Virus record (IMG/VR): IMGVR_UViG_3300021185_001264
Span: 1-64,000 of that record
Origin: a virus
DNA: 64,000 bases
Direction: 5' to 3' (one strand)
Below, one piece after another: positions 45,883 through 63,097 of this stretch. Below the pieces are notes generated by a model. That model was not told the DNA's origin. It saw only the letters and a list, made by a program, of their open reading frames with translations, and ran no database searches. The translations under genes were made by a program, and so were the position numbers. Numbering within the stretch: position 1 is the first letter of the stretch; each line of letters opens with the position of its first letter.

Positions 45883-48300
45883 ATGGCTAGGAAACCACAA
45901 GTAGTAAATCTATCTAAAGAGACGCTGGATCAAATTACTCCAGCGTTACATTCTATGCGTGATTCCCTTAGAAATCAAACTAGACTATTAACAGATACCT
46001 TTAACTTACAGACTAATGAACTCAGAGCGGCAGAGAGAAGAAGAAATCTAGCGCAATCCCAAGCAGACGAACAAGCGTCAGCCCTAGCGGCTGCGGCAAA
46101 CACTTCTGCTAGTCCAGCAGTCGCTGGTGGTAGTGGAGGCGGTGGTGGTCTTGGAAAACTAGGTTTAGCTGGTATGGCAGGATTAGGCGGTCTTGCTATG
46201 ACAGCCATGAAGGGTGTTGGAGGTCTTGCATTACTTGGAGTAGCAATACCTACATTCTTTGGTGGTTTACTAGCTGGATCTGAAACATTAAGTTGGATGC
46301 AAGAAACGAAGGGAATGGATTTTGAGGGTCTGAAGACTGCGGCATTAGGATTCAGTGAAGTCATTCAAGTTATGGATCCTAAAGCGTTTGTGGCATTAGG
46401 TGCAATCACTGCAATAGGAGCAGTCGGAGGCACTAGTGGTGCTATCGGGTTAGGCACAATGGGCTTTGCTATTAGTGCTTTTCTTGGCGGTCTATTAGCA
46501 GGCGATCTTATATTCGCAGGAGTCACAGCATTAGGTGGATCATTAGACTTTGGAGCCATAGGTAAAGCAGTTACCGGTGTCGGGACTATCTTTAACGGTC
46601 TAGATACGAAAGGACTAGTTGTATTAGGTACACTCTTAGGAGGTGCAACATTAGCGTCTGCGTTTGGCGGAGGTAAATCAGCGGCTAAAGGACTCGCATT
46701 TATGGGTCTTGGCATTAGCGGTTTCTTAGCAGGTCTATTAGCAGGCGATCTTCTATTTGCAGGTGCAAGTGCCCTTGGAGCAAGTTTAGATTTTAATAAC
46801 GTAAAGACTATGCTCACTGGTTTCTCTTCAGCTATAGGAGCATTGACTCTTCCTGCTGTAGCCGCACTAGGAGCCCTGATGACAGGTGGTGCGATTGTTG
46901 GATATTCTCCACTGAAAGCAAAATCATTAGCTAAGGGTCTATTTGCGATTAGTGCAGGAATGGTAGCATTAATGGCAGGCTTTGCCGCTACTGATGTCGT
47001 TGGAGCAGGTGCTTTAGCACTAGGCGCAAGTGCCGACTTCAGCAACGTACAGAAATTGATGACAGGATTCTCTGCGGCTGTTGGATCACTAGACACTAAA
47101 TCTGTTGCTACACTAGGCGGTCTGTTAGTCGCAGGTGGAGCATTGGGCGCAATAACAACTGAAAAAATGAAAGCTAAGTTTGTTTTAGGAGCTGGAGCTT
47201 TAGCCGCATCGATTGTAGCGTTCATGGGTGCATTTGCTGTAGGAGATGCAGGTGTTGCCGCATTAGGAGCAGATGGTTCATCAATTGCTACACTCGTTAG
47301 TAATTTTGGATTAGCGATTGACTCTCTCAGTGATAAATCAATTAAAACTCTAGGCGCACTAGTCGGTGTAGGTGGAGTTTTAGGAGCAGTAACAGCCGCA
47401 ACAGGCGGAGTAGGCGCCGCTGTGTTTGCAGGTATACCAGCATTAGGTGCATCGATTGCCGCATTCTTCTTAGCGTTTGAAGGAATAGCCGCTGTTGGCG
47501 ACATAATAGGACTGGACGGATCAAAAACAAAAGCTCTATTAATGAATTTTGGCGAAGGAATTGGGGCACTTACTGGCTTAGATATGGCTAATGCTGAAAA
47601 GGTTGGAGCAGGGTTAACATCTCTAGCCGCAGGCATGACAGCATTCTTTGCCGCTAAAGCAATAGGCGGAGTAGTCGATTTCTTTGGAGGAGTCAAAGCC
47701 GCATTCAAAAATTCTTGGAACTGGTTATGGGGTACCGACTCTGAAACAAAGAGTCCATTTCAAGGAATGCTTGACGCTCTAGAGCCACTTAAGAGTTTAG
47801 ATGATGCTATTATAACTAAGATGGATAAATTTGGCGTTGCAATTGATAACTTCGTCGGTAGTTTTGAAGGATTAAAGAACATTGATGCTTCTGCTGGCTC
47901 TGCGGCTTTAGGAAGAATCATTGCAGATGTCGGAGCTGTTCTGGCGATGATGGACACTCTCATGAAGGGTGGCACATATGATACCGGTACTGGTCCAGCA
48001 TTCAGACTGTTTGGCAATAAAAGAGGACTTATAGACTTTGGTCCAGGCTTAGATAGCTTGGATGAGCCAACTCTAGCTAGATTAACTACAGGTGTAGATA
48101 ACTTACGTGGCGCACTCGGTAGAAGCCAAGCAACAGATCAGGCTGCTGTCGATTCCGCATCAAGAGAGGCTGCCGCAGTTGCCGCACAAGTAAATGTAGG
48201 ACCAACTACTGTAATAAATCAAGGCGGTAGTCAAAGAACAACACTAGTAACAGCTAATCCAAAAGTATCTGCTCAAATGTCATTCGCAGGTGGATTCTAG
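45883..48300 (+). CDS. 29: Tail tape measure protein (gp29-like)
   Basis: 805 residues (T4 gp29 is 590). Residues 1-75 are a charged helix (NLSKETLDQITPALHSMRDS and so on). From residue 95 there are Gly/Ala-rich hydrophobic segments, then six copies of an ~80-residue repeat (residues 154-600), each with a GF-x-x-x-(I/V)-x-x-L-x-x-K-x-x-x-x-LG core. The C-terminal 200 residues are non-repetitive (WNWLWGTDSETKSPFQGMLD and others). Length, hydrophobicity and position behind the tail chaperones identify a tape measure, the protein that sets tail length and threads the tube. Last gene of the rightward operon. Confidence 0.85.
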   Translation: MARKPQVVNLSKETLDQITPALHSMRDSLRNQTRLLTDTFNLQTNELRAAERRRNLAQSQADEQASALAAAANTSASPAVAGGSGGGGGLGKLGLAGMAGLGGLAMTAMKGVGGLALLGVAIPTFFGGLLAGSETLSWMQETKGMDFEGLKTAALGFSEVIQVMDPKAFVALGAITAIGAVGGTSGAIGLGTMGFAISAFLGGLLAGDLIFAGVTALGGSLDFGAIGKAVTGVGTIFNGLDTKGLVVLGTLLGGATLASAFGGGKSAAKGLAFMGLGISGFLAGLLAGDLLFAGASALGASLDFNNVKTMLTGFSSAIGALTLPAVAALGALMTGGAIVGYSPLKAKSLAKGLFAISAGMVALMAGFAATDVVGAGALALGASADFSNVQKLMTGFSAAVGSLDTKSVATLGGLLVAGGALGAITTEKMKAKFVLGAGALAASIVAFMGAFAVGDAGVAALGADGSSIATLVSNFGLAIDSLSDKSIKTLGALVGVGGVLGAVTAATGGVGAAVFAGIPALGASIAAFFLAFEGIAAVGDIIGLDGSKTKALLMNFGEGIGALTGLDMANAEKVGAGLTSLAAGMTAFFAAKAIGGVVDFFGGVKAAFKNSWNWLWGTDSETKSPFQGMLDALEPLKSLDDAIITKMDKFGVAIDNFVGSFEGLKNIDASAGSAALGRIIADVGAVLAMMDTLMKGGTYDTGTGPAFRLFGNKRGLIDFGPGLDSLDEPTLARLTTGVDNLRGALGRSQATDQAAVDSASREAAAVAAQVNVGPTTVINQGGSQRTTLVTANPKVSAQMSFAGGF
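46342..47682 (+). repeat. Six ~80-aa coding repeats in the tape measure
   Basis: Repeat cores begin near residues 154 (ALGFSEVIQVMDPK), 230 (VTGVGTIFNGLDTK), 311 (LTGFSSAIGALTL), 393 (MTGFSAAVGSLDTK), 472 (VSNFGLAIDSLSDK) and 553 (LMNFGEGIGALTG). Spacing is 76-82 residues. Each core is followed by a LG-rich hydrophobic helix and a GLLAGD-type segment. Confidence 0.75.
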
Positions 48301-51015: not shown

Positions 51016-51384
51016 TTAGAAGCTAAATGTAGCACCGATGTGAATCTCTTCACGTGCTGTTGCTTCTAGGTTGTACTTTGTCTTTGCATAGTACTCTACA
51101 GAATCCATTGAGCCCATAGTATAGTTTAATTCGAACTCAAGCGTAGGCATAACTTCGATAGTGTTATCTGCTACCAATTCGTTATCCCATATTGCCAACT
51201 CTGTGCTTGTTACAAAGTTCAAGCCTTCAGTTGGCGTAAATGTCAACGCCGGTTCGATGTCAACTGTCATGCGAGCCGCATCTACAGCATAGTTAGCGTC
51301 TATTTCACCACCAAATGACCACATAGAGTCTGCATATGCAGTAGTTGCTGTTAATGCCGCAACTGTTGCGATTACGAGTTTCAT
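51016..51384 (-). CDS. Small exported protein, outer-membrane beta-barrel-like
   Basis: 122 residues with a clear Sec signal peptide (MKLVIATVAALTATTAYA, cut before DS). The mature ~104 residues show about six amphipathic beta strands (GGEIDANYAV, MTVDIEPALTF, LNFVTSTELAIW, TIEVMPTLEFELNYTM, VEYYAKTKYNLEA, EIHIGATFSF) and end with Phe, the usual C-terminal signal of outer membrane proteins. It is short for a full barrel, so it may oligomerise. The gene starts about 25 nt after the tmRNA coding piece and has AAAGGAAAT before the ATG, so it is probably co-transcribed with the tmRNA. A role in changing the infected cell surface (for example exclusion) is speculative. Confidence 0.75.
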   Translation of the reverse strand: MKLVIATVAALTATTAYADSMWSFGGEIDANYAVDAARMTVDIEPALTFTPTEGLNFVTSTELAIWDNELVADNTIEVMPTLEFELNYTMGSMDSVEYYAKTKYNLEATAREEIHIGATFSF

Positions 51385-51458
51385 TAGATTTCCTTTCTTA
51401 TAATTGAAACTTGGTCCGGCATTTTCTGTTCCAAGGCAAGCCGGTCAGCCCGTCAAAT

Positions 51459-51503
51459 TTACGCCGCTAGTGCGTAGTCTGAAGATACAAAGTTATCGTT
51501 TGC
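51459..51503 (-). other. tmRNA tag reading frame ANDNFVSSDYALAA
   Basis: Resume codon GCA at 51503-51501, then 13 more codons and TAA (51461-51459). The peptide starts AND and ends ALAA, as expected for a trans-translation degradation tag recognised by ClpXP-type proteases and SspB-like adaptors. With the Ala charged on the tmRNA the full tag would be 15 residues. Confidence 0.92.
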
Positions 51504-51588
51504 ATTTAGTTTGGTTTCTTGCGTTAACGGAGCTTGCGCCCGGATTCTCCACTTCTCTGCCCTGTCAGTCGATTCCTACTTCAGCCCC

Positions 51589-51670
51589 ATCAAAAATACA
51601 TTGTCTTGGACCCTTGCGAGGTCTGCGTCTCTGCAAAGACACCTTATTGCAGTAAGGCGCAATGTACTTT
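51589..51670 (-). other. Intervening segment of the permuted tmRNA
   Basis: 82 nt between the CCA end and the start of the coding piece. The ends pair (51666-51660 with 51603-51597, 7 bp). Inside are three small hairpins: CCTTA/TAAGG, GTCT/AGAC and GACC/GGTC. In known permuted tmRNAs such a segment is removed after transcription to give the two mature RNAs. Confidence 0.85.
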
Positions 51671-51736
51671 TGGTGGAGCTGTCGGGAGTCGCACCCGAGT
51701 CCTGTCCAGTATTAATCCGCTTCAACGAATCATTAG

Positions 51737-51744
51737 TATTTATA
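51737..51744 (-). promoter_or_regulatory. Late box TATAAATA at the tmRNA start
   Basis: Exact late octamer directly downstream of the -10 of the sigma70-like promoter, so the tmRNA could also be transcribed by late polymerase from almost the same start. Confidence 0.55.
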
Positions 51745-51745
51745 C

Positions 51746-51774
51746 ACTATACGCTATTTTTGAATGGATGTCAA
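51746..51774 (-). promoter_or_regulatory. Sigma70-like promoter of the tmRNA (TTGACA-17-TATAGT)
   Basis: Minus strand TTGACA (51774-51769), 17-nt spacer, TATAGT (51751-51746). The start of RNA would be near 51739, just ahead of the acceptor piece. The -35 lies directly after the stop of the 40-aa gene at 51778. Confidence 0.82.
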
Positions 51775-52931: not shown

Positions 52932-53618
52932 TTATTTAATTTCTGGAAATAACGATTCTGATATGAATGCATCGACATCATCCGAATCAAGACCCAAACT
53001 TTTCATCACATTTGGGGTATGTGGATTCATCTTCTGATGCTCTGCATAATAGTTTTGCGATGCTTTGCCTAAATCACTGTCAGCGTATCCGTTATACTTA
53101 CCAATGTTTTTCTTGTAGTAACACAGACCTTCTTTGGCAACCTTACATATCTGATCGATCTCTGCTGGTTCTTTGACCATACCAGCGGCAATCATGCTAT
53201 CACTGAAGATTGCTTTTGCCCATGGCGGCAGTTCTCGTTCTCTTTTCCATTGTAATGGTTTGGCAATTGTTGCGAAGTGTTCCATCATAGGATGTTCTGA
53301 ATTAGACGTAGAAGAGAAATCATAAAATGCACCTGTCATCTTATTGGCACCTGCAATCACATCAAACCCGTATATTGGTCCGTCATTATGTGTATGAGGA
53401 AAGACACATACATGCATCATCCACAGCTTCTTCTCTTCACGCATATCGACCACATCAATGTGTGCCCTACGATAATTGTTATTTGACCATACTCTGTTTA
53501 CCCAACCAGGCTGATTGAATCTATCCATACCAGGCTCACGTATTTCAGTAGCATCTGATGATAGCTGTTCGATTAGATTGTTTTGAAGATCAATCAAACT
53601 ATTCCATATAATAGACAT
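52932..53618 (-). CDS. Ferredoxin-dependent bilin reductase (PcyA/PcyX-like)
   Basis: 228 residues. The family core is clear: WSNNNYRRAHIDVVDMREEK, LWMMHVCVFPHTHNDGPIYG, FDVIAGANKMTGAFYDFSS. His69 and Asp86 are 17 residues apart, the same spacing as the catalytic His88/Asp105 of PcyA, and the remembered phage enzyme PebS lacks that His. It therefore belongs nearer the PcyA/PcyX side, where viral PcyX enzymes turn biliverdin into a reduced bilin. Electrons would come from host ferredoxin. The start overlaps the stop of the small membrane gene (TAATG); heme oxygenase lies one gene upstream. Confidence 0.88.
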   Translation of the reverse strand: MSIIWNSLIDLQNNLIEQLSSDATEIREPGMDRFNQPGWVNRVWSNNNYRRAHIDVVDMREEKKLWMMHVCVFPHTHNDGPIYGFDVIAGANKMTGAFYDFSSTSNSEHPMMEHFATIAKPLQWKRERELPPWAKAIFSDSMIAAGMVKEPAEIDQICKVAKEGLCYYKKNIGKYNGYADSDLGKASQNYYAEHQKMNPHTPNVMKSLGLDSDDVDAFISESLFPEIK

Positions 53619-53764
53619 TACAGCACCGTTGCTCCGACTACTGTCGTAACTATTATTAAGACGTATAAACCATACATCATTATACTTAATTTTTCAAGTC
53701 TTTTCTGTCTCTCTCCAAAAGCAACCATCAATCTTTCGAATGATTCATCCAATTCGCTCTTCAT
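53618..53764 (-). CDS. 48-aa one-helix membrane protein inside the bilin operon
   Basis: 48 residues from the ATG at 53764, which has GAGGAG seven nt upstream; a longer in-frame start at 53833 has no such site and overlaps heme oxygenase more. The N-terminal half is a charged helix (MKSELDESFERLMVAFGERQ), and the C-terminal half one membrane helix (MMYGLYVLIIVTTVVGATVL). It overlaps the heme oxygenase end by 20 nt and the reductase start by one base pair of codons (TAATG). No family recognised; it could tether or regulate the bilin enzymes. Confidence 0.7.
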   Translation of the reverse strand: MKSELDESFERLMVAFGERQKRLEKLSIMMYGLYVLIIVTTVVGATVL

Positions 53765-54302
53765 GCAATAACTCCTCAAATAGTCTAATCGCAAATGCAA
53801 AGCATTTATTTGCTTCATCTGCCATATTATCATTCAACAACAGTCGAACATTCTGCTTCATCTCTTCTTTGTTTTCAAACTGATACATGGTACCACTACC
53901 AGGAACACGTTTTGCAATGATAGCACCACCGTACATATCTCCAAAGTGTCTTACATATAAGTGCGAGATGATTCCGTCTACGTCTTCGTTCATTAAAAGG
54001 TTTTCAATGTGTCCGACATATTCTTGGGTTGACTTGCATATGAGTTCGCTATAGGTAAATCCGTAGATTTCCTCAAGTTCATGCATGTCATCTATGATCT
54101 TTTTTGCCCTAAAAATTGACCTGAACTCTTCTGGAAATGCGAGTTCACGCAACGCTGATTCGAGAACAACGTAGTTCTGGGACTGATTGATTAAGTATCT
54201 GTAATATAGAAAGGGATCAATATTACCACTGAGTAATATCTTGGCAAAATCTTTACGTTCTGCTGATCTATGGTTTTCTGCCGTTAGCTGTTTTAAATTC
54301 AA
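53745..54302 (-). CDS. Heme oxygenase
   Basis: 185 residues. The N-terminal LTAENHRSAER contains the proximal heme ligand His11, and the distal helix reads HLYVRHFGDMYGGAIIAKRV with the G-D-x-x-G-G motif (121-126). The enzyme opens heme to biliverdin, iron and CO, giving the substrate of the reductase two genes downstream. The start is TTG at 54302 with GGAG seven nt upstream; an in-frame stop two codons earlier rules out a longer form. The leader carries a 9-bp inverted repeat. Confidence 0.9.
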   Translation of the reverse strand: MNLKQLTAENHRSAERKDFAKILLSGNIDPFLYYRYLINQSQNYVVLESALRELAFPEEFRSIFRAKKIIDDMHELEEIYGFTYSELICKSTQEYVGHIENLLMNEDVDGIISHLYVRHFGDMYGGAIIAKRVPGSGTMYQFENKEEMKQNVRLLLNDNMADEANKCFAFAIRLFEELLHEERIG

Positions 54303-54356: not shown

Positions 54357-54364
54357 TATTTATC
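54357..54364 (-). promoter_or_regulatory. Late-like box GATAAATA ahead of heme oxygenase
   Basis: Minus-strand GATAAATA (one mismatch), overlapping the kinase stop codon, 55 nt before the TTG start. It could drive the bilin operon late. Confidence 0.35.
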
Positions 54365-55058
54365 TAGTCTTTTTAGCCTTCTCAGATTTAATCCATCTCT
54401 TGGCTACAGCATTATCTGGTTCTGCATTCACAAACTTGGTGATCTCTCTATAGGCACGGGTAGTTTCTTTTTGATAGTCTTTGCCTTCAGAGTTATCTAC
54501 AACAGTAAACTTTTGCTTTCCGAACATAGTCTGAAAAGAACCAATATTCTTTTGAACTGTAGTCCAGTACTTTTCTACTTCATCAGCAGGCAGTGTTCTT
54601 GCTCTCGCTTTGTTACGTGCTTGTGCTGTGGCTAAGTCAGTGTTAACGAAAATCATTGCAACATCGTAACCTAGCTTTTTGAGTTCTTTTGCTTGGTTTG
54701 TCAGCTTTGCTGTGTCTTTACCTGTACCATCGATACATAGACCTAAACGACCTTTTATGTACATCGCTTGCTTAGTCGCTGTCAGCTTCTTGGCTTTGCC
54801 TCGTAACTCTTGACCTTTAACGGAGAAGATGTTATCCGGATCCATTTCCATACCAGCTTTCTTCATAGCTGATTCAAATGCATCGTCTGAGTTCACAACC
54901 TTAAATCCAAGTGCTGGAAGTCCAGTTTTGCCTACAATGAATGATTTGCCAGAGCCAGGTCCACCGGCTAAGAATACTGCTTTGAAGATTGCAGGATCAT
55001 TAACGCCTTCTTCGATTTGTTTTAGTTCTTCTTTAAGATAGTTTTCAAACGATAACAC
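54360..55058 (-). CDS. P-loop kinase / zeta-toxin-like protein
   Basis: 232 residues. The Walker A motif is at about residues 30-39 (LAGGPGSGKS), followed by VVNSDDAFESAMKKAGMEMD and a Walker B-like LGLCIDGTGKD, then NKARARTLPADEVEKYW with the arginine-rich lid of polynucleotide-kinase or zeta-toxin-type enzymes. Such genes are frequent in marine T4-like phages, usually of unknown substrate. The start is GTG at 55058 with AAGGA before it. It could phosphorylate nucleic acid or a small molecule in the cytoplasm. Confidence 0.8.
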   Translation of the reverse strand: MLSFENYLKEELKQIEEGVNDPAIFKAVFLAGGPGSGKSFIVGKTGLPALGFKVVNSDDAFESAMKKAGMEMDPDNIFSVKGQELRGKAKKLTATKQAMYIKGRLGLCIDGTGKDTAKLTNQAKELKKLGYDVAMIFVNTDLATAQARNKARARTLPADEVEKYWTTVQKNIGSFQTMFGKQKFTVVDNSEGKDYQKETTRAYREITKFVNAEPDNAVAKRWIKSEKAKKTR

Positions 55059-55090
55059 TTTACGGTTCCTTATGAATATGTCTAATAATC

Positions 55091-55648
55091 TTATTTATAA
55101 AAAATGTGAGACTCAATTCTGCTAGTTTTACTATATGCTTTAGACCAATAAGGATTAACATATGATGCATGATACATCGTGGCGCCGTCCGTAATGTCTC
55201 GTTCAATGCCATAGTTTTTCATTACCCACTCAGCGTTATACATCGCTTCTTTAAATTTTACTTTATCGTGAGGAGTATCGTTCTTACCGTCACAGTACCA
55301 AGAGAATTGGCACTTATTACGAATAGGATTACCTCTGCTGTTTAAGTGAGACTGATACACTACATCACATATCGTATCTGGATACTTTTCGCTGTAGACA
55401 CGATTCATTGTAACCATGCCTACTGCTTCTTGTCCTAGAGTAGAATCACTTCTTGCTTCATGGTAGATATTAAGAGCCATACATTGTAACTGCTCCTGAT
55501 ACTGTAGGTCTGCAATCTCTGCTTCTATTACTGCATTACGTTCAATGGCAGCCTGTTCTTGTGCTTTAAGTTCTTCGACAGTTAATATCGTAACAGCCAC
55601 TATGGTTATTAAGGATAACGATCCTGTAAGAATACTCGATAGTTTCAT
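55091..55648 (-). CDS. SleB/CwlJ-type cell wall hydrolase, probable endolysin
   Basis: 185 residues. The N-terminal ~27 residues are a hydrophobic signal or anchor (LTGSLSLITIVAVTILTVEE), followed by a short helix and the Hydrolase_2 domain: MALNIYHEARSDSTLGQEAV with catalytic Glu64, MNRVYSEKYPDTICDVVYQS, CQFSWYCDGKNDTPHDK and the C-terminal TDGATMYHASYVNPYW. The family cuts peptidoglycan glycan strands. The uncut N-terminal segment suggests export and membrane anchoring before lysis (signal-arrest-release type). It has its own sigma70-like promoter. Confidence 0.88.
   Translation of the reverse strand: MKLSSILTGSLSLITIVAVTILTVEELKAQEQAAIERNAVIEAEIADLQYQEQLQCMALNIYHEARSDSTLGQEAVGMVTMNRVYSEKYPDTICDVVYQSHLNSRGNPIRNKCQFSWYCDGKNDTPHDKVKFKEAMYNAEWVMKNYGIERDITDGATMYHASYVNPYWSKAYSKTSRIESHIFYK
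55092..55099 (-). promoter_or_regulatory. Late promoter box ahead of the P-loop kinase
   Basis: Minus-strand exact TATAAATA overlapping the endolysin stop codon, 33 nt before the kinase GTG. Confidence 0.6.
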
Positions 55649-55744: not shown

Positions 55745-57796
55745 TTATTTAGTCGTTGGGCGATACACTCCATCCCAATCTTTAGGCAGTTCTCTAGTCT
55801 TCATCTCTTTGCATCGATCAATCCATACGTCATAATATCCGTCCATAGTGCCTAAAAAGCACCCCTTTAAGTCATCACAGAACTTGATTGCCATGTCAAA
55901 TTTCTGCATTCGATATAAATCTAGCATCTTTATGTGCTGTTTAGTTTCAAATACATATGCAGAGTTTTCATTCCACCAAGAGTGTTCTCCTAGAACAGTG
56001 AAAATTCGTACACCTTCGTTCTTGCCCTTTACAGCAATACAGTCTAGTTCAAGTGTGGCAAATACATCATCGATCTCTTTTGCCGTCTCTTCTCCAATAA
56101 TAGTTTTCACGCCATATCCTTTCGTTTGTCCTTCGAGTCTGGCTGCCAAATTCACTGCATCTCCTAACACAGAGTAGTCGAACCTTTGCTCAGACCCCAT
56201 ATTACCAACAACGACTGCGCCGCTATTGATTCCTACGCCTATATTTATTGGTAACAAACCGTCACTCTCTAACTCAGCATTTAGGACTTCTAATGCTTCG
56301 TACATTTGTACGGACGTCAAACACGCTTTTCTTTCTTGCTCTTCTACATCAAGAGGAGCATTCCAGAAAGCCATAATACAATCGCCCATATACTTGTCAA
56401 TAGTACCCTCATTCTCCATAATGATATTAGTCATAGGAGTTAAGAATCTATTCACAAGTTCTGTCAGACCCTGTGGATCCGTCTTATATTGCTCTGAGAT
56501 GGGTGTAAATCCACGTATATCACAGAACAAAAATGTCATATGTTTAGTCTCTCCACCGAGTTGCAGTAACTCAGGATTCTTTTGTAGTTTTTCTACCATA
56601 GGTGCTGATAGATATGTGCCAAACTGTTTCTTAATTCGCATCTTGGCGAAGTACTCTTGCCCGTATTTGACTCCATACACGTGAGCAAACACTAGTATAG
56701 CCATCGCACCTTGCATCATTATGATATATAATTCTGCATAATTGTTGAACCAGTATATAGGAAAGTATATCGATGATCCGATCAGCAATAGCGGTGGTAC
56801 CCAACCAAATCTCACATAACTCAATCCAACTATTAGTATACCTAATCCTAGAATAGTTGCAAGTTTAGCAAAATCAGCAAGAGGTGGAGTTACGATGTTG
56901 TATTGGTTTTTGACTGAGGTAAATGCTCTTGCAGTTACATCATGTCCATATGCGGCACCTGATGCTGTCGGCACTGGGTTAGATATTCCGTCTGCTGTTA
57001 CACCCACGAATACTGTTGCACCTTTTAAATCGTCAAACTCTGTAGTTAGATCGTATCGTTTAAAGTCATAGTTTGGATTTATCCATATACGGCTTATTGG
57101 ATCTGTATTGATTGTAGGAAATCCTTTGACACGAACTGCCTGTACTCCAAACTCATTGCTCTTAACCTGAAACGTATTTGACCCAGTGTATGCCTTGAAT
57201 ATCTCTAAGATGATTGATGGGTAGAGTTTATCTTGTACGCCAGCAATCATAGGTAATCTTCGAACTACTCCGTCAATCTCAGGCAATGTGTTTGCAATGC
57301 CTATGCCAGTAGCGGCATTTTCATACTTCTCTAAGTTTGCGGCTATGCCAGGATAATTGTAAATATAATCCAAAGCATCACCACCAACCTGTACAATAGC
57401 TGTACTGTATGCGGATCTATTCTGAGCCTTATTGCTAGGGAAGTGAGAAAGAATGACTCCGTTCGGAAGCATGAGCGTGAAGCCTTCGTCTTCACCTGTT
57501 CGATCTTCTTCTGGAAATGATAGATTAAATACGATAACACCTGCATTCGCTTGACGCAATCTGAGGATTAAATCCCCATAAATGTTTCTTGGTAGTGGGT
57601 ATTGTCCATGTACTTCTAAAGTCTTCTCCGAGATGTCTACGAGAACGACATCCTCAATGAATTGCTTTTCCTTTACGATCAACTGGTCACTGATTCTCAG
57701 ATCAATGCTCTGAAGCAGTGTAGGATTTAATATTGTTAGCCACGTTAGAGTTAACGTAGTGATGATAGCGAATAATGGCGAAAGCAGTATTTTCAT
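55745..57796 (-). CDS. CHASE2-transmembrane-class III nucleotide cyclase
   Basis: 683 residues. N-terminal anchor helix (8-28), CHASE2 sensor in the periplasm (about 30-305: VVLVDISEKTLEVHGQYPLP, VIVFNLSFPEEDR, GATVFVGVTADGISNPVPT), then three membrane helices (about 307-375) and a cytoplasmic cyclase domain (about 415-600). Catalytic residues are visible: metal Asp426 (LFCDIRGFT) and Asp472 (KYMGDCIMAFWNAP), base-recognition Lys468 and Asp546 (SVLGDAVNLAARLE), and Asn549/Arg553. Lys and Asp at the base sites point to ATP, so cAMP is the likely product. It appears intact. GAGAGG precedes the ATG. It follows the curli/FecR genes in the same direction. Confidence 0.9.
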   Translation of the reverse strand: MKILLSPLFAIITTLTLTWLTILNPTLLQSIDLRISDQLIVKEKQFIEDVVLVDISEKTLEVHGQYPLPRNIYGDLILRLRQANAGVIVFNLSFPEEDRTGEDEGFTLMLPNGVILSHFPSNKAQNRSAYSTAIVQVGGDALDYIYNYPGIAANLEKYENAATGIGIANTLPEIDGVVRRLPMIAGVQDKLYPSIILEIFKAYTGSNTFQVKSNEFGVQAVRVKGFPTINTDPISRIWINPNYDFKRYDLTTEFDDLKGATVFVGVTADGISNPVPTASGAAYGHDVTARAFTSVKNQYNIVTPPLADFAKLATILGLGILIVGLSYVRFGWVPPLLLIGSSIYFPIYWFNNYAELYIIMMQGAMAILVFAHVYGVKYGQEYFAKMRIKKQFGTYLSAPMVEKLQKNPELLQLGGETKHMTFLFCDIRGFTPISEQYKTDPQGLTELVNRFLTPMTNIIMENEGTIDKYMGDCIMAFWNAPLDVEEQERKACLTSVQMYEALEVLNAELESDGLLPINIGVGINSGAVVVGNMGSEQRFDYSVLGDAVNLAARLEGQTKGYGVKTIIGEETAKEIDDVFATLELDCIAVKGKNEGVRIFTVLGEHSWWNENSAYVFETKQHIKMLDLYRMQKFDMAIKFCDDLKGCFLGTMDGYYDVWIDRCKEMKTRELPKDWDGVYRPTTK

Positions 57797-57821: not shown

Positions 57822-57986
57822 CTATTTATCAATCTTTACACGAGGTCTCCAGTGTGGATTTTCGACATATTCTAGCTTTTTCGTTGGTCTGTACATGAAC
57901 TCTCCATTGTCCATTTTTAGCTTCTCGACCTTTCCAGTGTTTACCCACTTTGATGTCCAACAGACTACAGGAGATTTCTTAGTCAT
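57822..57986 (-). CDS. 54-aa hypothetical protein between curlin fusion and cyclase
   Basis: 54 residues, basic, Trp- and Lys-rich (MTKKSPVVCWTSKWVNTGKV, then EKLKMDNGEFMYRPTKKL). The ATG at 57986 overlaps the end of the curlin-fusion gene by 8 nt, and the stop is 25 nt before the cyclase ATG. No signal peptide, so cytoplasmic. Function unknown; too short for common ORF cut-offs. Confidence 0.65.
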   Translation of the reverse strand: MTKKSPVVCWTSKWVNTGKVEKLKMDNGEFMYRPTKKLEYVENPHWRPRVKIDK

Positions 57987-59265
57987 TTTGATATATCGTT
58001 AAGTTGCAACCACCGGTGGCATTACATGTACCATTCACGCCAGAACCGTCTGTCATGGTATGTGGTAAAGTGTATGTTTTATTAGATGCTCCTGCTTGAT
58101 TTAGTTCGAAGTTCCAAGGCTCTGATCCATCTAGTGCAATTGTGGCTTCGTGGTCTCCACTTCCAGACTGAACCACATCAACCTCATGACTGTCTCCCTC
58201 GACATCTAAGTCTAAGTAATGACTGCCTGAACCAGTCTGACTGACTAGTACATCGTTTAAATCTCCATCAATACGTACAAACGCTCCTTTGTCTCCACTG
58301 CCTTTTTGTATAAGATCAAATTCATTGCTGTCACCTAGAATAGCGATTTCGGTATACCCATGAGCGCCTAGATCCATGTCTTGATCAATGTCGATAGCGT
58401 TGGTATTCCCTAGTATCGATAGTAATACGTAACTGGGACCACCTGCTTGCTCTATGAATATGTCATTACTAGAACCGTCAATGTCCATTTCAATAGTGTT
58501 TCCTTGTCCGTTGTCTGCCAGTACTTGAGCGGCGGCCACTCTCGTTGCTTGTGCTGTTGTTAGTCCTGAAGATCCATATACTGGAGTAGGAGCAGAAGTT
58601 GTAGTAGATGATGCTAAGAAATTTCCCATGTTATCTGCGTAAGTGTGTGTTGACGTTAACTGTCCGTATCCAAACGTCACAATTACCATTCCATCTCCAT
58701 AATCCCATACGTACCAACTATACCAAGTTGACGTTGAACTATTTGCGGCCATTCCTTCACCACCGCTTGCTGTGAATAGGTAATCTGGACCTGGCAGAAC
58801 GTTTTCACTTGAGGTGCTTGACGCATAATCTCCAATTGCCACTGAGCCGTAGCAATTATTACATCCGTTTGATAGAGATATGCTTCCCACGCTCATCACG
58901 TTTTCTATAAGAGATTCGATATTACCGATTCTATTCGTTGCACCATTAGGTGCCGCAATGATTAGTGTTCCACCACCGTCAACATAGCTGTCGTATACGT
59001 TTCTACAGTTACTACCACAGTTTGACGTACCTGCTATATCAATAACCATGTCCATATTACTCACATCGTTTGAACTCACCGATGTCGTATTACTGCCTGA
59101 TACAGTCCAGCCTGCATCCTCTAATATACTTTTTAGGTTAGCGTAATGTGCGCTGGTAGCATTGGTATAATATATAAACACACTATCTGCATAAGCATTT
59201 GTTGGAATGAATAGTAGTAATATGAGTGCTAAACTACTGAGACTGCGTAATATTGATGATAACAT
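57979..59265 (-). CDS. Exported protein: Rossmann-like domain fused to curlin-type repeats
   Basis: 428 residues from the ATG at 59265 (GGAGG five nt upstream); a GTG two codons earlier would overlap that site. Signal peptide to about residue 26 (ALILLLFIPTNAYA). Residues ~28-220 resemble a class I glutamine amidotransferase-like/ThuA fold without catalytic residues (VFIYYTNATSAHYANLKSIL, MDMVIDIAG, YVDGGGTLIIAAPNG, DGMVIVTFGYGQ). Residues ~245-425 contain five to six curlin-like repeats (G-x-x-N-x-x-x-x-x-Q): SSNDIFIEQAG, NTNAIDIDQD, DSNEFDLIQKGSG, DLNDVLVSQTGSG, DSHEVDVVQSGSG and WNFELNQAGASN. The start overlaps the FecR gene by 32 nt. A nucleator or cell-anchored curli subunit is a reasonable guess. 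Confidence 0.8.
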   Translation of the reverse strand: MLSSILRSLSSLALILLLFIPTNAYADSVFIYYTNATSAHYANLKSILEDAGWTVSGSNTTSVSSNDVSNMDMVIDIAGTSNCGSNCRNVYDSYVDGGGTLIIAAPNGATNRIGNIESLIENVMSVGSISLSNGCNNCYGSVAIGDYASSTSSENVLPGPDYLFTASGGEGMAANSSTSTWYSWYVWDYGDGMVIVTFGYGQLTSTHTYADNMGNFLASSTTTSAPTPVYGSSGLTTAQATRVAAAQVLADNGQGNTIEMDIDGSSNDIFIEQAGGPSYVLLSILGNTNAIDIDQDMDLGAHGYTEIAILGDSNEFDLIQKGSGDKGAFVRIDGDLNDVLVSQTGSGSHYLDLDVEGDSHEVDVVQSGSGDHEATIALDGSEPWNFELNQAGASNKTYTLPHTMTDGSGVNGTCNATGGCNLTIYQND

Positions 59266-60340
59266 CGCCACCTCCGTTTAGTGTGATCAGTGCTGGCACC
59301 GCATCTTTGTACATATTTACTTCTCCGTCGGTATCTCTAGTAGTCGTGACACTTGTGATGTGTGTCGAACTTTCACTAAAAACACCAATTGTTTCTTCAT
59401 CATAGTATGCCTGTACGATATCTCTATACTGATTATATGTAGGCAACACTGGATCTATTTCTAACTGTTCACCTCGCAACATTGCGGTGGCATCTAAAAT
59501 GTTTACAAGAAAATCGATGTCTAGTCGGTTGATGTCGAGTTCTAGAAATTCTAATTTATCTTCTTCCAAATTATCGTCATTAAGTTCTGAGTATTCTAGT
59601 AGGTCACTGTCCAAATATTCTGAAGCTTCAGCTTGTGCGATATATCCTACACCCTTCAACTCATCAGGTGGTGCAATGATTAGCATATTGTCAATACCTC
59701 GACCGTCAAGATCAATAATCATGGGCTTCGATGGTAATGACATTCCATCAGACACTAGTGTTGCTTGAAAAGCTTGATTGAGTATTACCATACCAATATC
59801 AGTCGCTACCTCGATTTCTCCTGTCCAACATGGATCACCATTTGAGGGACAAGTAGGAAGAAGTATTACTAGACTCCTGCCTAATTCGTCTACCGTCATA
59901 GTAAAATCTGTTCCTCTTACCGATATAGTAGCAGTGGGTGTTCTAAGTTTGACATTTTCTCTAGAATTTGCGGCAATGGCACCAGAAGAATATCTCACTG
60001 TTCCCAGTGCAACATTCATAGCAAGTTTGCCTGTTCCCGCATTGGGATCGTAAATGAAGTCATCAATCACTAGCGTACTTTGCTCAGATATGCTTACCTT
60101 AGTATCATCTTCAAAAGTAAGACCCATTTTGGTCTTAGCTGTAGATATCTCATCATTCATTGAGATGCCAACACCTTTACGAGATTCGATTATCTCGCTT
60201 TCACCTCTTTTTATCTGTGCGGCATTACCAGTTTGCTCAGTAACGCTTCCTACTTCATCCACACTAGCACTAGCAAATGTGTTTAGTGTAATCAATAAAA
60301 GTGATAGTAAAACACTAGTTCTGTTTAATGTCAATGACAT
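59234..60340 (-). CDS. Exported FecR-domain protein
   Basis: 368 residues. Signal peptide to about residue 25 (LLSLLLITLNTFASA). The FecR domain is at about 30-150: RKGVGISMNDEISTAKTKMG, LTFEDDTKVSISEQSTLVID, VALGTVRYSSGAIAANSREN, VKLRTPTATISVRGTDFTM. The rest (LDRGI-type segments, acidic EYSELNDDNLEEDKLEFLEL) is not recognised. FecR-type domains occur in sigma-regulator systems but also in exported proteins beside CHASE2 cyclases. There is no transmembrane anti-sigma part here. It overlaps the curlin gene upstream by 26 nt and the fusion gene downstream by 32 nt. Confidence 0.85.
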   Translation of the reverse strand: MSLTLNRTSVLLSLLLITLNTFASASVDEVGSVTEQTGNAAQIKRGESEIIESRKGVGISMNDEISTAKTKMGLTFEDDTKVSISEQSTLVIDDFIYDPNAGTGKLAMNVALGTVRYSSGAIAANSRENVKLRTPTATISVRGTDFTMTVDELGRSLVILLPTCPSNGDPCWTGEIEVATDIGMVILNQAFQATLVSDGMSLPSKPMIIDLDGRGIDNMLIIAPPDELKGVGYIAQAEASEYLDSDLLEYSELNDDNLEEDKLEFLELDINRLDIDFLVNILDATAMLRGEQLEIDPVLPTYNQYRDIVQAYYDEETIGVFSESSTHITSVTTTRDTDGEVNMYKDAVPALITLNGGGDVIINITQSQ

Positions 60341-61004
60341 TACTGTTGCCGTCTACTGTCATAGTAATTTTAGGCGAATCGTTACCGTCTTGCAATATAT
60401 CAATACTATTGAAACTACTTGAAGCTGTGCCACCTACCGTAATAGTGTTAACAGCATCAGCGGCATCCAACTCCATATTAATTGAGTTGTAGTCACCATT
60501 TGCAACGATAGTAGTTTTGGTATCCACTACAGCAACTTCAGTTGTACAGCCAGCAATAGTTCCAGATTGTGTTACTGAACTACCACTACCACTTACAGTA
60601 CCAGTAGTAGCCTTTCCGCTGCCGTCGTTAGTTCCACAGACAGTTACTAAGTTACTATCACCAGTTATTGTTGAAGTGATTTCAGTGCCAGTAGAGGCAA
60701 TACCTATTACCGTTTCGTTACTGTCACCAGTATTGACGATTGCAATATCTGTGTCATTGGATCCAGCGGCAGTAGATATGTCTGTCTTGTTGCTGTTACC
60801 TGTTTGAGTGATATCAATATCTTGGCTGTTACCTGTTAATGTTGTTGCCGTAGTTGAATTACCAACTAAGTTGCCATTTCCTGTTTGGACAATGTCAATA
60901 GTAGATGAACTACCAGCCTGATCTATATACACATCACTAGCAAACGCTGGCGCTGTGATTGCACTTAATAGTGCTAAAATTAAAAGTTTCTTATTAAAAC
61001 TCAT
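60315..61004 (-). CDS. Curlin-repeat protein (CsgA/CsgB-like)
   Basis: 229 residues. Signal peptide to about residue 22 (LLILALLSAITAPAFA). The mature chain contains curlin-like repeats with the N-x-x-x-I-x-Q-x-G pattern: DVYIDQAGSSSTIDIVQTGN, GNSQDIDITQTGNSNKTDIS, TDIAIVNTGDSNETVI, and at the C-terminus FNSIDILQDGN plus VDGNSNVIDIKQN. The middle part is less regular and carries two Cys. Such repeats stack into a beta solenoid and form amyloid fibres outside the cell. AAGGGAAAG precedes the ATG. The 82-nt gap to csgG holds a small GTCC/GGAC hairpin but no clear promoter. Confidence 0.85.
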   Translation of the reverse strand: MSFNKKLLILALLSAITAPAFASDVYIDQAGSSSTIDIVQTGNGNLVGNSTTATTLTGNSQDIDITQTGNSNKTDISTAAGSNDTDIAIVNTGDSNETVIGIASTGTEITSTITGDSNLVTVCGTNDGSGKATTGTVSGSGSSVTQSGTIAGCTTEVAVVDTKTTIVANGDYNSINMELDAADAVNTITVGGTASSSFNSIDILQDGNDSPKITMTVDGNSNVIDIKQN

Positions 61005-61086: not shown

Positions 61087-61875
61087 CTATTTAACGAAGT
61101 CCCAGTATCCTTTTCTGGCACCTTCTTTAATTAACTCTACAACCGATTGCTCGATTGCTACTCTGACTGCGTAGTTTACAGGTTCATTGATAGTGTGTCC
61201 CATCTCTGCCTCTAAACTATTAGTTCCCATATCAAAAAATCTAAAAAATGTCATGGAGGTACCTGTGCTTATAATCGTCTTTGTTGTTGAGACACTTATT
61301 AACACTTCTCCTGACTGTACACTCACCATTCTCATAGTAATAGTTACGATGTCTTGACGATACTGAGTACTAGGACCAACTCCTAAATACCTTGCTCCTG
61401 CTCCTCCAGTCAAAACATTCGAATCATAACCTATGATGCCGCCTTCTACTAATACTCCAGCGAACAACATAGGTCTTAATGCTCTTTCATCTCCGACAGA
61501 TGCTCTACTTTGTCTGATTATCTGCCGTTCTTTTGTTAAATTCTCTAGCCCTACTCTTTCTACTACCTGAAACCATTCACCATTACCTACTTCTTGTAAA
61601 GCCTTAATCAGCCAAACTTCAGCACCTTGAGTTACCGCAGTACTTATATTTGCCATTCTTTCACTCGGCTTTCGTTGACCTGTTTTGTCTTCAAAGCCAT
61701 ACACTGCAACTACTGCTTTGCCTGTTGATGGCCCCTTTATAGTCAAAAACTCAGTATTCTCGTTTTTGATTACTTTAGCAGGTTCCGGCTCAGGCATAAA
61801 TCCAAAGTCTTCAGTAAGTGTAGCACATCCGCTAGTCAGTAGCAAAAGTGCTGATATCATAAAAAAGTGTTTCAT
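61087..61875 (-). CDS. csgG: CsgG-type curli secretion channel lipoprotein
   Basis: 262 residues (E. coli CsgG 277). The lipobox LLTSGC puts the lipidated Cys at 17. The core is clearly CsgG: VVAVYGFEDKTGQRKP, ANISTAVTQGAEVWLIKALQ, WFQVVERVGLENLTKERQII, LFAGVLVEGGIIGYDSNVLT and GGAGARYLGVGPSTQYRQDI, then SGEVLISVSTTKTI. CsgG forms a nonameric outer-membrane pore for curli subunits. In the pore loop the Asn is kept, but the position of E. coli Phe56 is Ile and Tyr51 is replaced. The C-terminus stops right after GYWDFVK, lacking the E. coli tail. The start overlaps the csgF stop (TAATG). Confidence 0.93.
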   Translation of the reverse strand: MKHFFMISALLLLTSGCATLTEDFGFMPEPEPAKVIKNENTEFLTIKGPSTGKAVVAVYGFEDKTGQRKPSERMANISTAVTQGAEVWLIKALQEVGNGEWFQVVERVGLENLTKERQIIRQSRASVGDERALRPMLFAGVLVEGGIIGYDSNVLTGGAGARYLGVGPSTQYRQDIVTITMRMVSVQSGEVLISVSTTKTIISTGTSMTFFRFFDMGTNSLEAEMGHTINEPVNYAVRVAIEQSVVELIKEGARKGYWDFVK

Positions 61876-62354
61876 TAGAATGCAAAATCTCCAACTGGTA
61901 CATCGAACTCAGAAATTATATCACCGTTTGAGTCCTTTATAGTTACATATATTCTTCCGTCTAGTCTCATCCATGATATCTCATCGCCAAAAGGTGACTC
62001 TGCAATATACCATTCTCCGTCAACTGTTCCTTCACCTGTCTCACCAAAAAGTTGGTCCGCAATATTCTTAGATAGAGTAGCATAAATTCTTGATTCCAGA
62101 TTGTTCTGGAATTTGTATGCGTTAGTACTTTTACGTTCTCTCTCTAATCTGTCTTCCTCTGCTTTCGCCTCGTCCTTTAATTCCTTTTTTCTGTTTGCTT
62201 GTATTTGCTCAATGGTCAAAATGTGCGAACTGTATCCTTGACCGTTAAAGGCTGGGGACAAAAAGTCATGCGTCAACTCACTTGCGTTTACCAGATTTGG
62301 TATTAACATTACTGACAGTGTTAGTGTTAGTCCTTTCAATAGTCTCTTTTTCAT
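61875..62354 (-). CDS. csgF: CsgF-type curli assembly factor
   Basis: 159 residues (E. coli CsgF 138). Signal peptide to about residue 24. The mature N-terminus (ELTHDFLSPAFNGQGYSSHI) corresponds to the segment of CsgF that plugs into the CsgG channel (F-x-N-P-x-F-G-G in E. coli). A charged helix (KKELKDEAKAEEDRLERERK) and a C-terminal beta part (DGRIYVTIKDSNGDIISEFD) follow. CsgF links CsgG to the nucleator at the cell surface. It starts inside the end of the upstream gene (77-nt overlap) and ends in csgG. Confidence 0.85.
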   Translation of the reverse strand: MKKRLLKGLTLTLSVMLIPNLVNASELTHDFLSPAFNGQGYSSHILTIEQIQANRKKELKDEAKAEEDRLERERKSTNAYKFQNNLESRIYATLSKNIADQLFGETGEGTVDGEWYIAESPFGDEISWMRLDGRIYVTIKDSNGDIISEFDVPVGDFAF

Positions 62355-62604
62355 TTTTCTCTTTTTCCTGTTTTTCTAGGACAAGGTCTAACTTCGTTTT
62401 AAGTCTAATCAGATCGTTGTCCAGCATACGCACTCTATCGATTAAAGCGATAAGCGTCATATGCGATTCATCTATAACGGGATTAACTTCCTCAGTTACC
62501 CATTTCCAAATATAATATATAAAATACCCTAAACCGCCAGCGGCAATTATTGGGAACCCATACTGACTTACAGCCTGGGCTAAATCTAGCTCTACTACAT
62601 CCAT
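62278..62604 (-). CDS. Holin-like small membrane protein 1
   Basis: 108 residues: one N-terminal membrane helix (YGFPIIAAGGLGYFIYYIWK), then a coiled coil (HMTLIALIDRVRMLDNDLIR, LKTKLDLVLEKQEKEKN) and a Lys/Thr/Asn-rich tail. It shares the G-F-P-I-x-x-A-x-x-G-G-x-x-x-(F/Y) start and an L-(I/D)-x-R-(V/I)-x-x-(L/M)-(D/N)-N-(D/E) helix with the 62819-63097 protein, so they are probably paralogues. The design (one helix plus coiled coil) resembles small phage holins and BhlA/YvrJ-like proteins. The role is not established. Its 3' end overlaps csgF by 77 nt. Confidence 0.7.
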   Translation of the reverse strand: MDVVELDLAQAVSQYGFPIIAAGGLGYFIYYIWKWVTEEVNPVIDESHMTLIALIDRVRMLDNDLIRLKTKLDLVLEKQEKEKNEKETIERTNTNTVSNVNTKSGKRK

Positions 62605-62818: not shown

Positions 62819-63097
62819 TTAATCCTTCCTTGCATCCTGTTGTCCATCCGCTCTTGAAATGCGGTTTAAGTCAGGTGAAATTCCAAACGCATGGCATACT
62901 GAAACATCAATTCTAACTACTTCATTGTTCATCGTTTTAATTCTATTGTCTAGTGCCTGAGCGAAACCTCTTTGAGTTTTAATATCTCCGAGTACTCCAT
63001 CCAGAATAAACTTAAGTGTGAGAAACACAAAGAAACCTCCAGCTAAGGCAGAGGCTATTGGAAAGCCCACATCAGCTACAAACTGCAACATTTCCAT
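62819..63097 (-). CDS. Holin-like small membrane protein 2
   Basis: 92 residues: membrane helix near the N-terminus (VGFPIASALAGGFFVFLTLK), then a helical region (AQALDNRIKTMNNEVVRIDV) and a charged tail. Probable paralogue of the 62278-62604 protein. First gene after the late promoter 63134-63141 and so the first gene of the operon that continues into csgF/csgG. Confidence 0.7.
   Translation of the reverse strand: MEMLQFVADVGFPIASALAGGFFVFLTLKFILDGVLGDIKTQRGFAQALDNRIKTMNNEVVRIDVSVCHAFGISPDLNRISRADGQQDARKD

Follow-up and report, generated by a model that had tools for sequence, protein, structure and literature searches.

A CHASE2 nucleotide cyclase in the curli module of a T4-like phage, with relatives in two catalytic forms

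The window analysed here, a stretch of 64,000 bases, is the part from position 1 to 64000 of a virus record 66,783 bases long, and it encodes on its minus strand (55745..57796) a CHASE2-containing class III, IIIb-like nucleotide cyclase. Taken as a whole, the observations are best explained if this protein is the membrane adenylate cyclase of a phage curli (type VIII secretion) module, reporting on the periplasm, a reading that we consider probable. The phage cyclase and its module are already known. A 2022 paper on pelagiphages (PMC9599517) reported a curli/T8SS module that includes FecR and an adenylate cyclase; the curli portion had appeared in 2020 (PMC7029224) and was also described from the isolate Melnitz (PMC9004378). 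In HTVC008M and Melnitz the cyclase sits at the same place and in the same gene order, and relatives of the window cyclase were found in at least 599 viral stretches. The gene is therefore a member of a known group, neither rare nor of a new kind, contrary to the initial annotation, in which phage class III cyclases were called rare. What would be new is a second catalytic form, termed S-type below, together with a cartridge-like swapping of domains, both of which were seen from comparing relatives and not from the window alone.

The cyclase gene is an uninterrupted reading frame of 683 codons. Pfam CHASE2 matches residues 18-321 (E 2e-30, profile positions 5-254 of 257) and Guanylate_cyc matches residues 417-594 (E 8e-18; 65.1 bits against a curated cut-off of 21.9). 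An AlphaFold model made with 30 aligned sequences (mean pLDDT 86.3, pTM 0.58) begins with helices, followed by a mixed domain (45-300), three helices within 307-392, the cyclase fold and, at 605-667, a helical tail; individual helices are predicted at 9-40, 307-325, 333-353 and 360-392. The modelled full-length protein, with a helix, CHASE2, three helices and a C-terminal cyclase, would thus have the layout of CHASE2 membrane cyclases, and the Pfam span and the model agree with the earlier view that the CHASE2 and membrane regions are full length. The nearest solved relatives by sequence are cyclases of the Cya2, CyaB and CyaC type, and the same three were the best single-domain fold matches of the cyclase part (TM about 0.85 of the target); no solved structure related to the CHASE2 sensor was found by sequence search. 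The gene is under strong purifying selection: against a close relative (L003), dN/dS was 0.057 in CHASE2 and 0.03 in the catalytic domain. A degenerate or pseudogene cyclase was ruled out on the catalytic-domain value and on the retention of every catalytic residue.

The record, which comes from a marine phage, was marked as T4-like from its baseplate, tail, head-closure, gp32, gp59 and DsbA-like genes, and these structural genes, being on the same contig, bear out that the cyclase is phage-encoded. On the cyclase strand the 5' to 3' order is cobT-like, cobS-like, two small membrane proteins, csgF, csgG, curlin, fecR, curlin and cyclase; the name cobT for a gene in locus L082 is a reading of its sequence with no family search behind it. 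The small membrane proteins, paralogues matching phrog_18771, are encoded at 62819..63097 (92 aa) and 62278..62604 (108 aa, with a weak match to a holin family). They are followed by a CsgF-like protein (61875..62354, 159 aa, PF10614), a CsgG-like outer-membrane secretion pore (61087..61875, 262 aa, PF03783, E 3.5e-54), a first curlin-repeat protein (60315..61004, 229 aa, PF07012), the FecR-domain protein (59234..60340, 368 aa, PF04773, phrog_37870) and a second curlin-repeat protein (57979..59271, 430 aa, GTG start, PF07012), all on the minus strand. The cyclase is the last gene of the conserved csgF-csgG-curlin-fecR-curlin-cyclase order, and it belongs to a phage curli/T8SS module in the sense that csgF, csgG, curlin repeats and fecR accompany it in conserved order. 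A histidine kinase has been reported before csgF in pelagiphages (PMC9599517); in the window the two genes at this place (92 and 108 aa) have no Pfam kinase match.

The window cyclase has the same gene order and domain content as the pelagiphage module cyclases HTVC008M gp019 and Melnitz gp104, and is about 37% identical to them over 84-93% of the length. It has a helical tail of about 80 residues which gp019 lacks, and it has Asn at position 549 whereas gp104 is S-type. No near-identical phage record was found by DNA comparison.

Downstream of the cyclase, on the same strand, lie genes for a SleB-type cell wall hydrolase (55091..55648, minus strand; PF07486, phrog_938 endolysin), which is the next gene, a zeta-like kinase, a haem oxygenase and a bilin reductase. 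The hydrolase is a doubtful member of the module, being found near 8/80 cyclase loci and 6/80 FecR loci, some of which are short. The hydrolase and the zeta-toxin-like kinase (54360-55648, minus strand) are shared by a minority of relatives. The bilin reductase and haem oxygenase genes adjoin the module (52932-54302, minus strand), and in some loci such genes stand directly before csgF. Both were present in 10/18 S-type against 3/36 N-type loci among FecR-found loci with a typed cyclase, relatedness being ignored. Elsewhere in the window, an 805-aa reading frame (45883-48300, plus strand) with no PHROG or Pfam match lies where GC content is raised (0.46) and the GC skew is strong.

The association of the cyclase with FecR was followed in loci found through FecR, each scan being limited to its best 80 loci. 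A cyclase is held by 65 of these 80; where at least 4.5 kb lie beyond FecR it is present in 51/52, directly downstream in 44 and away from that place in 7 of the 51, and locus L154 has enough room but no cyclase. Chance adjacency was ruled out, both genes being present in 51/52 loci with room. Identity to the window protein is 32-38% in the best 80 bacterial cyclases, most of which are alphaproteobacterial. These alphaproteobacterial CHASE2 class III cyclases share its architecture, including the C-terminal tail, and its catalytic residues are found in 112/112 of those sampled. Phage profiles for csgG, csgF and curlin gave no match in the 80 bacterial cyclase loci. Of the 68 loci with enough upstream sequence, 19 have directly before the bacterial cyclase a gene for a FecR-domain protein, which is often very large; in the other 49 FecR is not immediately upstream, and it occurs anywhere in the locus in 30/68.

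A comparable pairing is BiofilmReg of Burkholderia, in which an exported FecR is encoded beside a CHASE2 membrane sensor as in the window; unlike in the window, that sensor is a histidine kinase accompanied by a response regulator, and the FecR part is linked to LysM (PMC5192318). Since the FecR-cyclase pair occurs in bacteria too, transfer of the pair is plausible. The initial annotation had read FecR and the cyclase as a transferred sensing module; the linkage stands and is shared with bacteria, but the curli module, published in 2022 (PMC9599517), had been missed. One marine alphaproteobacterial CHASE2 cyclase (L165:2753-9873) is flanked by a fusion of cNMP-binding and HlyD domains, two single-domain cNMP proteins, DUF1538 and a P-II-like protein; transporter genes lie nearby and a FecR/RTX protein is encoded several genes further off, on the opposite strand. 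This locus may represent cAMP-gated export.

In class III cyclases the base reader lies seven residues before the catalytic Asn, and the IIIb base readers are Lys plus Thr or Ser. In the window cyclase the metal Asp residues are D426 and D472, K468, N549 and R553 are also present, and S542 is presumably the base reader of a class IIIb pattern. Alignment to Pseudomonas aeruginosa CyaB (3r5g) places the Thr of the CyaB motif MDYTIIG opposite S542 and an Arg opposite D546; D546 as a base selector was ruled out by this alignment, and the residue is unchanged even in phage forms with other base readers. Thus, of the base-selecting pair proposed earlier, Lys468 holds and Asp546 gives way to S542, while the metal Asp residues and Asn549/Arg553 are retained as had been described. 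Ser or Thr at 542 was found in 114/114 N-type phage rows and 112/112 bacterial rows. Together with the CyaB alignment this points to a IIIb-like enzyme with a predicted preference for ATP, and the Pfam score above cut-off, the two metal Asp residues, the Asn/Arg pair and K468 with S542 would place it in that class. D426, K468, D472, D546 and R553 are present in 119/119 distinct phage proteins, counted once where contigs appeared in two scans, although conservation at about 467-479 is inflated here because the viral and bacterial cyclase scans chose loci partly by motifs (KYMGDCIM; DKYMGDC and IMAFWNA). The same five residues are present in 50/50 proteins found through FecR and not through cyclase motifs, a sample that, like the one drawn by similarity to the S-type, is free of that bias. 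Proteins shorter than 570 aa were dropped before the catalytic-residue counts, the domain-identity comparisons and part of the N549/S549 counts. With all catalytic residues present and a catalytic-domain dN/dS of 0.03, the protein does appear active, as first supposed, and very probably can produce cAMP.

Comparison of relatives revealed two catalytic forms. Asn549 is found in 100/119 distinct phage proteins (window included) and Ser549 in 19/119; in the FecR-found sample, which involved no selection by cyclase motif, the N549 form accounts for 32/50 and the S-type for 18/50. The S-type signature consists of I467, H476, H478, D542 and S549, always together, with both metal Asp residues, K468, D546 and R553 kept. 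At the five signature positions the window has D, A, W, S and N and is not S-type. No S-type was found among 112 bacterial relatives, including 30 picked for likeness to it. In seven S-type pairs the catalytic domains gave dN/dS values of 0.025-0.086, so the S-type does not look like decaying copies, and a model of the S-type (mean pLDDT 80.5) matched the same folds as the window form. A degenerate clade had been named at the outset as an observation that would count against activity; a Ser549 clade does exist, but the window lies outside it and the clade itself is under purifying selection. A literature search gave no paper on how replacement of the catalytic Asn acts.

Further comparison revealed that sensor and catalytic domains do not share one history. 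Three relatives (L087, L088, L089) are 79-80% identical to the window in the CHASE2 and membrane part and 40% in the catalytic domain; conversely, L006, L007 and L146 are 82-85% identical in the catalytic domain and 24-32% in the sensor. In the N/S pairs examined, identity switches near residues 384-392, a conserved linker. A window-like CHASE2 is joined to an N-type catalytic domain in the window, L002, L003/L086 and L085, and to an S-type domain in L087, L088 and L004/L089. Trees were made by quick searches with SH-aLRT support only, from 64 and 63 chosen rows, the long-branch L147 being omitted from the second. In the catalytic tree 13 S-type rows lie on one side of a branch with support 100; in the tree of CHASE2 domains they are spread out, with 7 changes of which at least 6 are forced by well-supported branches, and a single S-type clade is rejected (p-AU 4e-37). 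This clustering in one tree and scatter in the other indicates that phage sensors and catalytic domains have recombined several times near 384-392. Assembly chimaeras were ruled out as the source, both combinations recurring in different metagenomes, and the S-type is also carried by Melnitz, an isolate. The main text of PMC9599517 has zero occurrences of "chase", and no mention of sensor/catalytic swapping was found in the part of that paper available; among the papers listed for pelagiphage or phage-encoded CHASE2 or adenylate cyclases, no further report of swapping was found, and the literature search gave no assay of a phage cyclase of the present family.

From these observations a mechanism can be proposed. 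The N-terminal helix and the three later helices would span the inner membrane, with CHASE2 facing the periplasm. Two cytoplasmic catalytic domains would pair, converting ATP to cAMP once CHASE2 detects a periplasmic cue. The likeliest cue would be the state of the module itself, that is FecR or curlin subunits crossing the periplasm, because the genes for FecR and the cyclase go together in phages and frequently lie side by side in bacteria. The partner genes suggest that the cyclase monitors periplasmic curli or FecR. In SAR11 hosts the output would pass not through a Crp-like protein but through an unrecognised receptor, or would lie in some other effect of the reaction.

The alternative closest to the initial annotation is that cAMP from the cyclase acts on a Crp/Fnr-type regulator of the host and so rewires host transcription during infection, which we regard as unlikely. 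PMC9599517 draws attention to the cAMP-driven regulation of curli in Gammaproteobacteria, cNMP-binding proteins are present in 141/190 Alphaproteobacteria sampled, three cNMP-binding genes surround the marine bacterial cyclase of L165, and the host of the window phage may be a bacterium with such proteins. HTVC008M, however, infects Pelagibacter. An order was located through two 16S sites that we take to be SAR11 probe sites: the first was found in 2/385 genomes, and the order containing them was searched as SAR11-like; the second was found in 34/97 genomes of that order. Class III cyclases were found in 0/147 genomes of the SAR11-like order. PF00027, a domain that covers one receptor type among other possible cAMP receptors, had no match in 137/147; in the remaining 10 the best scores were a marginal 27.7-29.2 bits, 9 of them in an 870-aa frame. 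No cNMP-binding domain (PF00027) was found in the window's record, HTVC008M or Melnitz, nor a cNMP-binding protein in 20 large phage contigs, some of which are possibly fragments, and no paper on cAMP receptors in SAR11 was found. With no class III cyclases and few, weak cNMP matches in this order, and no cNMP match in the phages searched, action through Crp is doubtful: the proposed route to host Crp-like regulators is weakened and unlikely in SAR11, possible for other hosts, and the SAR11-like order may not be that of the window phage's own host.

The window also contains a permuted two-piece tmRNA gene (51368-51763, minus strand; tag ANDNFVSSDYALAA); it matches both alphaproteobacterial and permuted tmRNA families. 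Similar genes are described for Melnitz-like phages in PMC9004378. Used as a host marker, the phage tmRNA gave one marginal match in 372 alphaproteobacterial genomes and 0/97 in the SAR11-like order.

A more tentative and rather unlikely extension is that many periplasmic sensors are spliced at one linker either to a classical cAMP-producing domain, as in the window protein, or to an S-type domain with a rebuilt site that does not make cAMP in the ordinary way. The product would then be a messenger introduced by the phage and read by an unrecognised kind of receptor, since SAR11 hosts appear to be without class III cyclases and Crp-like receptors. Less probable still is that the reaction itself is the point, a late and uncontrolled cyclase draining ATP or timing lysis with the hydrolase, the holin-like proteins and the CsgG pore. 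The position of the hydrolase directly after the cyclase, the weak holin match of the small proteins before CsgF, the empty receptor search in phages and the lysis-timing role for CsgGF proposed in PMC9004378 all fit with this. However, the hydrolase is near few cyclases, and a simple drain would need no large, conserved and diverse periplasmic sensor. Finally, the commonness and conservation of the Ser-for-Asn form, from which full activity may not always be needed, would suit a nucleotide-binding regulator that is not a working cyclase, but this is highly improbable for a protein which, like 100/119 distinct phage proteins (itself included), keeps all catalytic residues.

The reading as a module cyclase that reports on the periplasm is therefore preferred. 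Phage cyclases of the present family are widespread in marine virus collections, and their natural chimaeras offer constructs already made for testing which cue CHASE2 detects and whether the product of the S-type differs. If active in SAR11, these enzymes would introduce a second messenger to cells that seemingly have neither a class III synthase nor the usual receptor.
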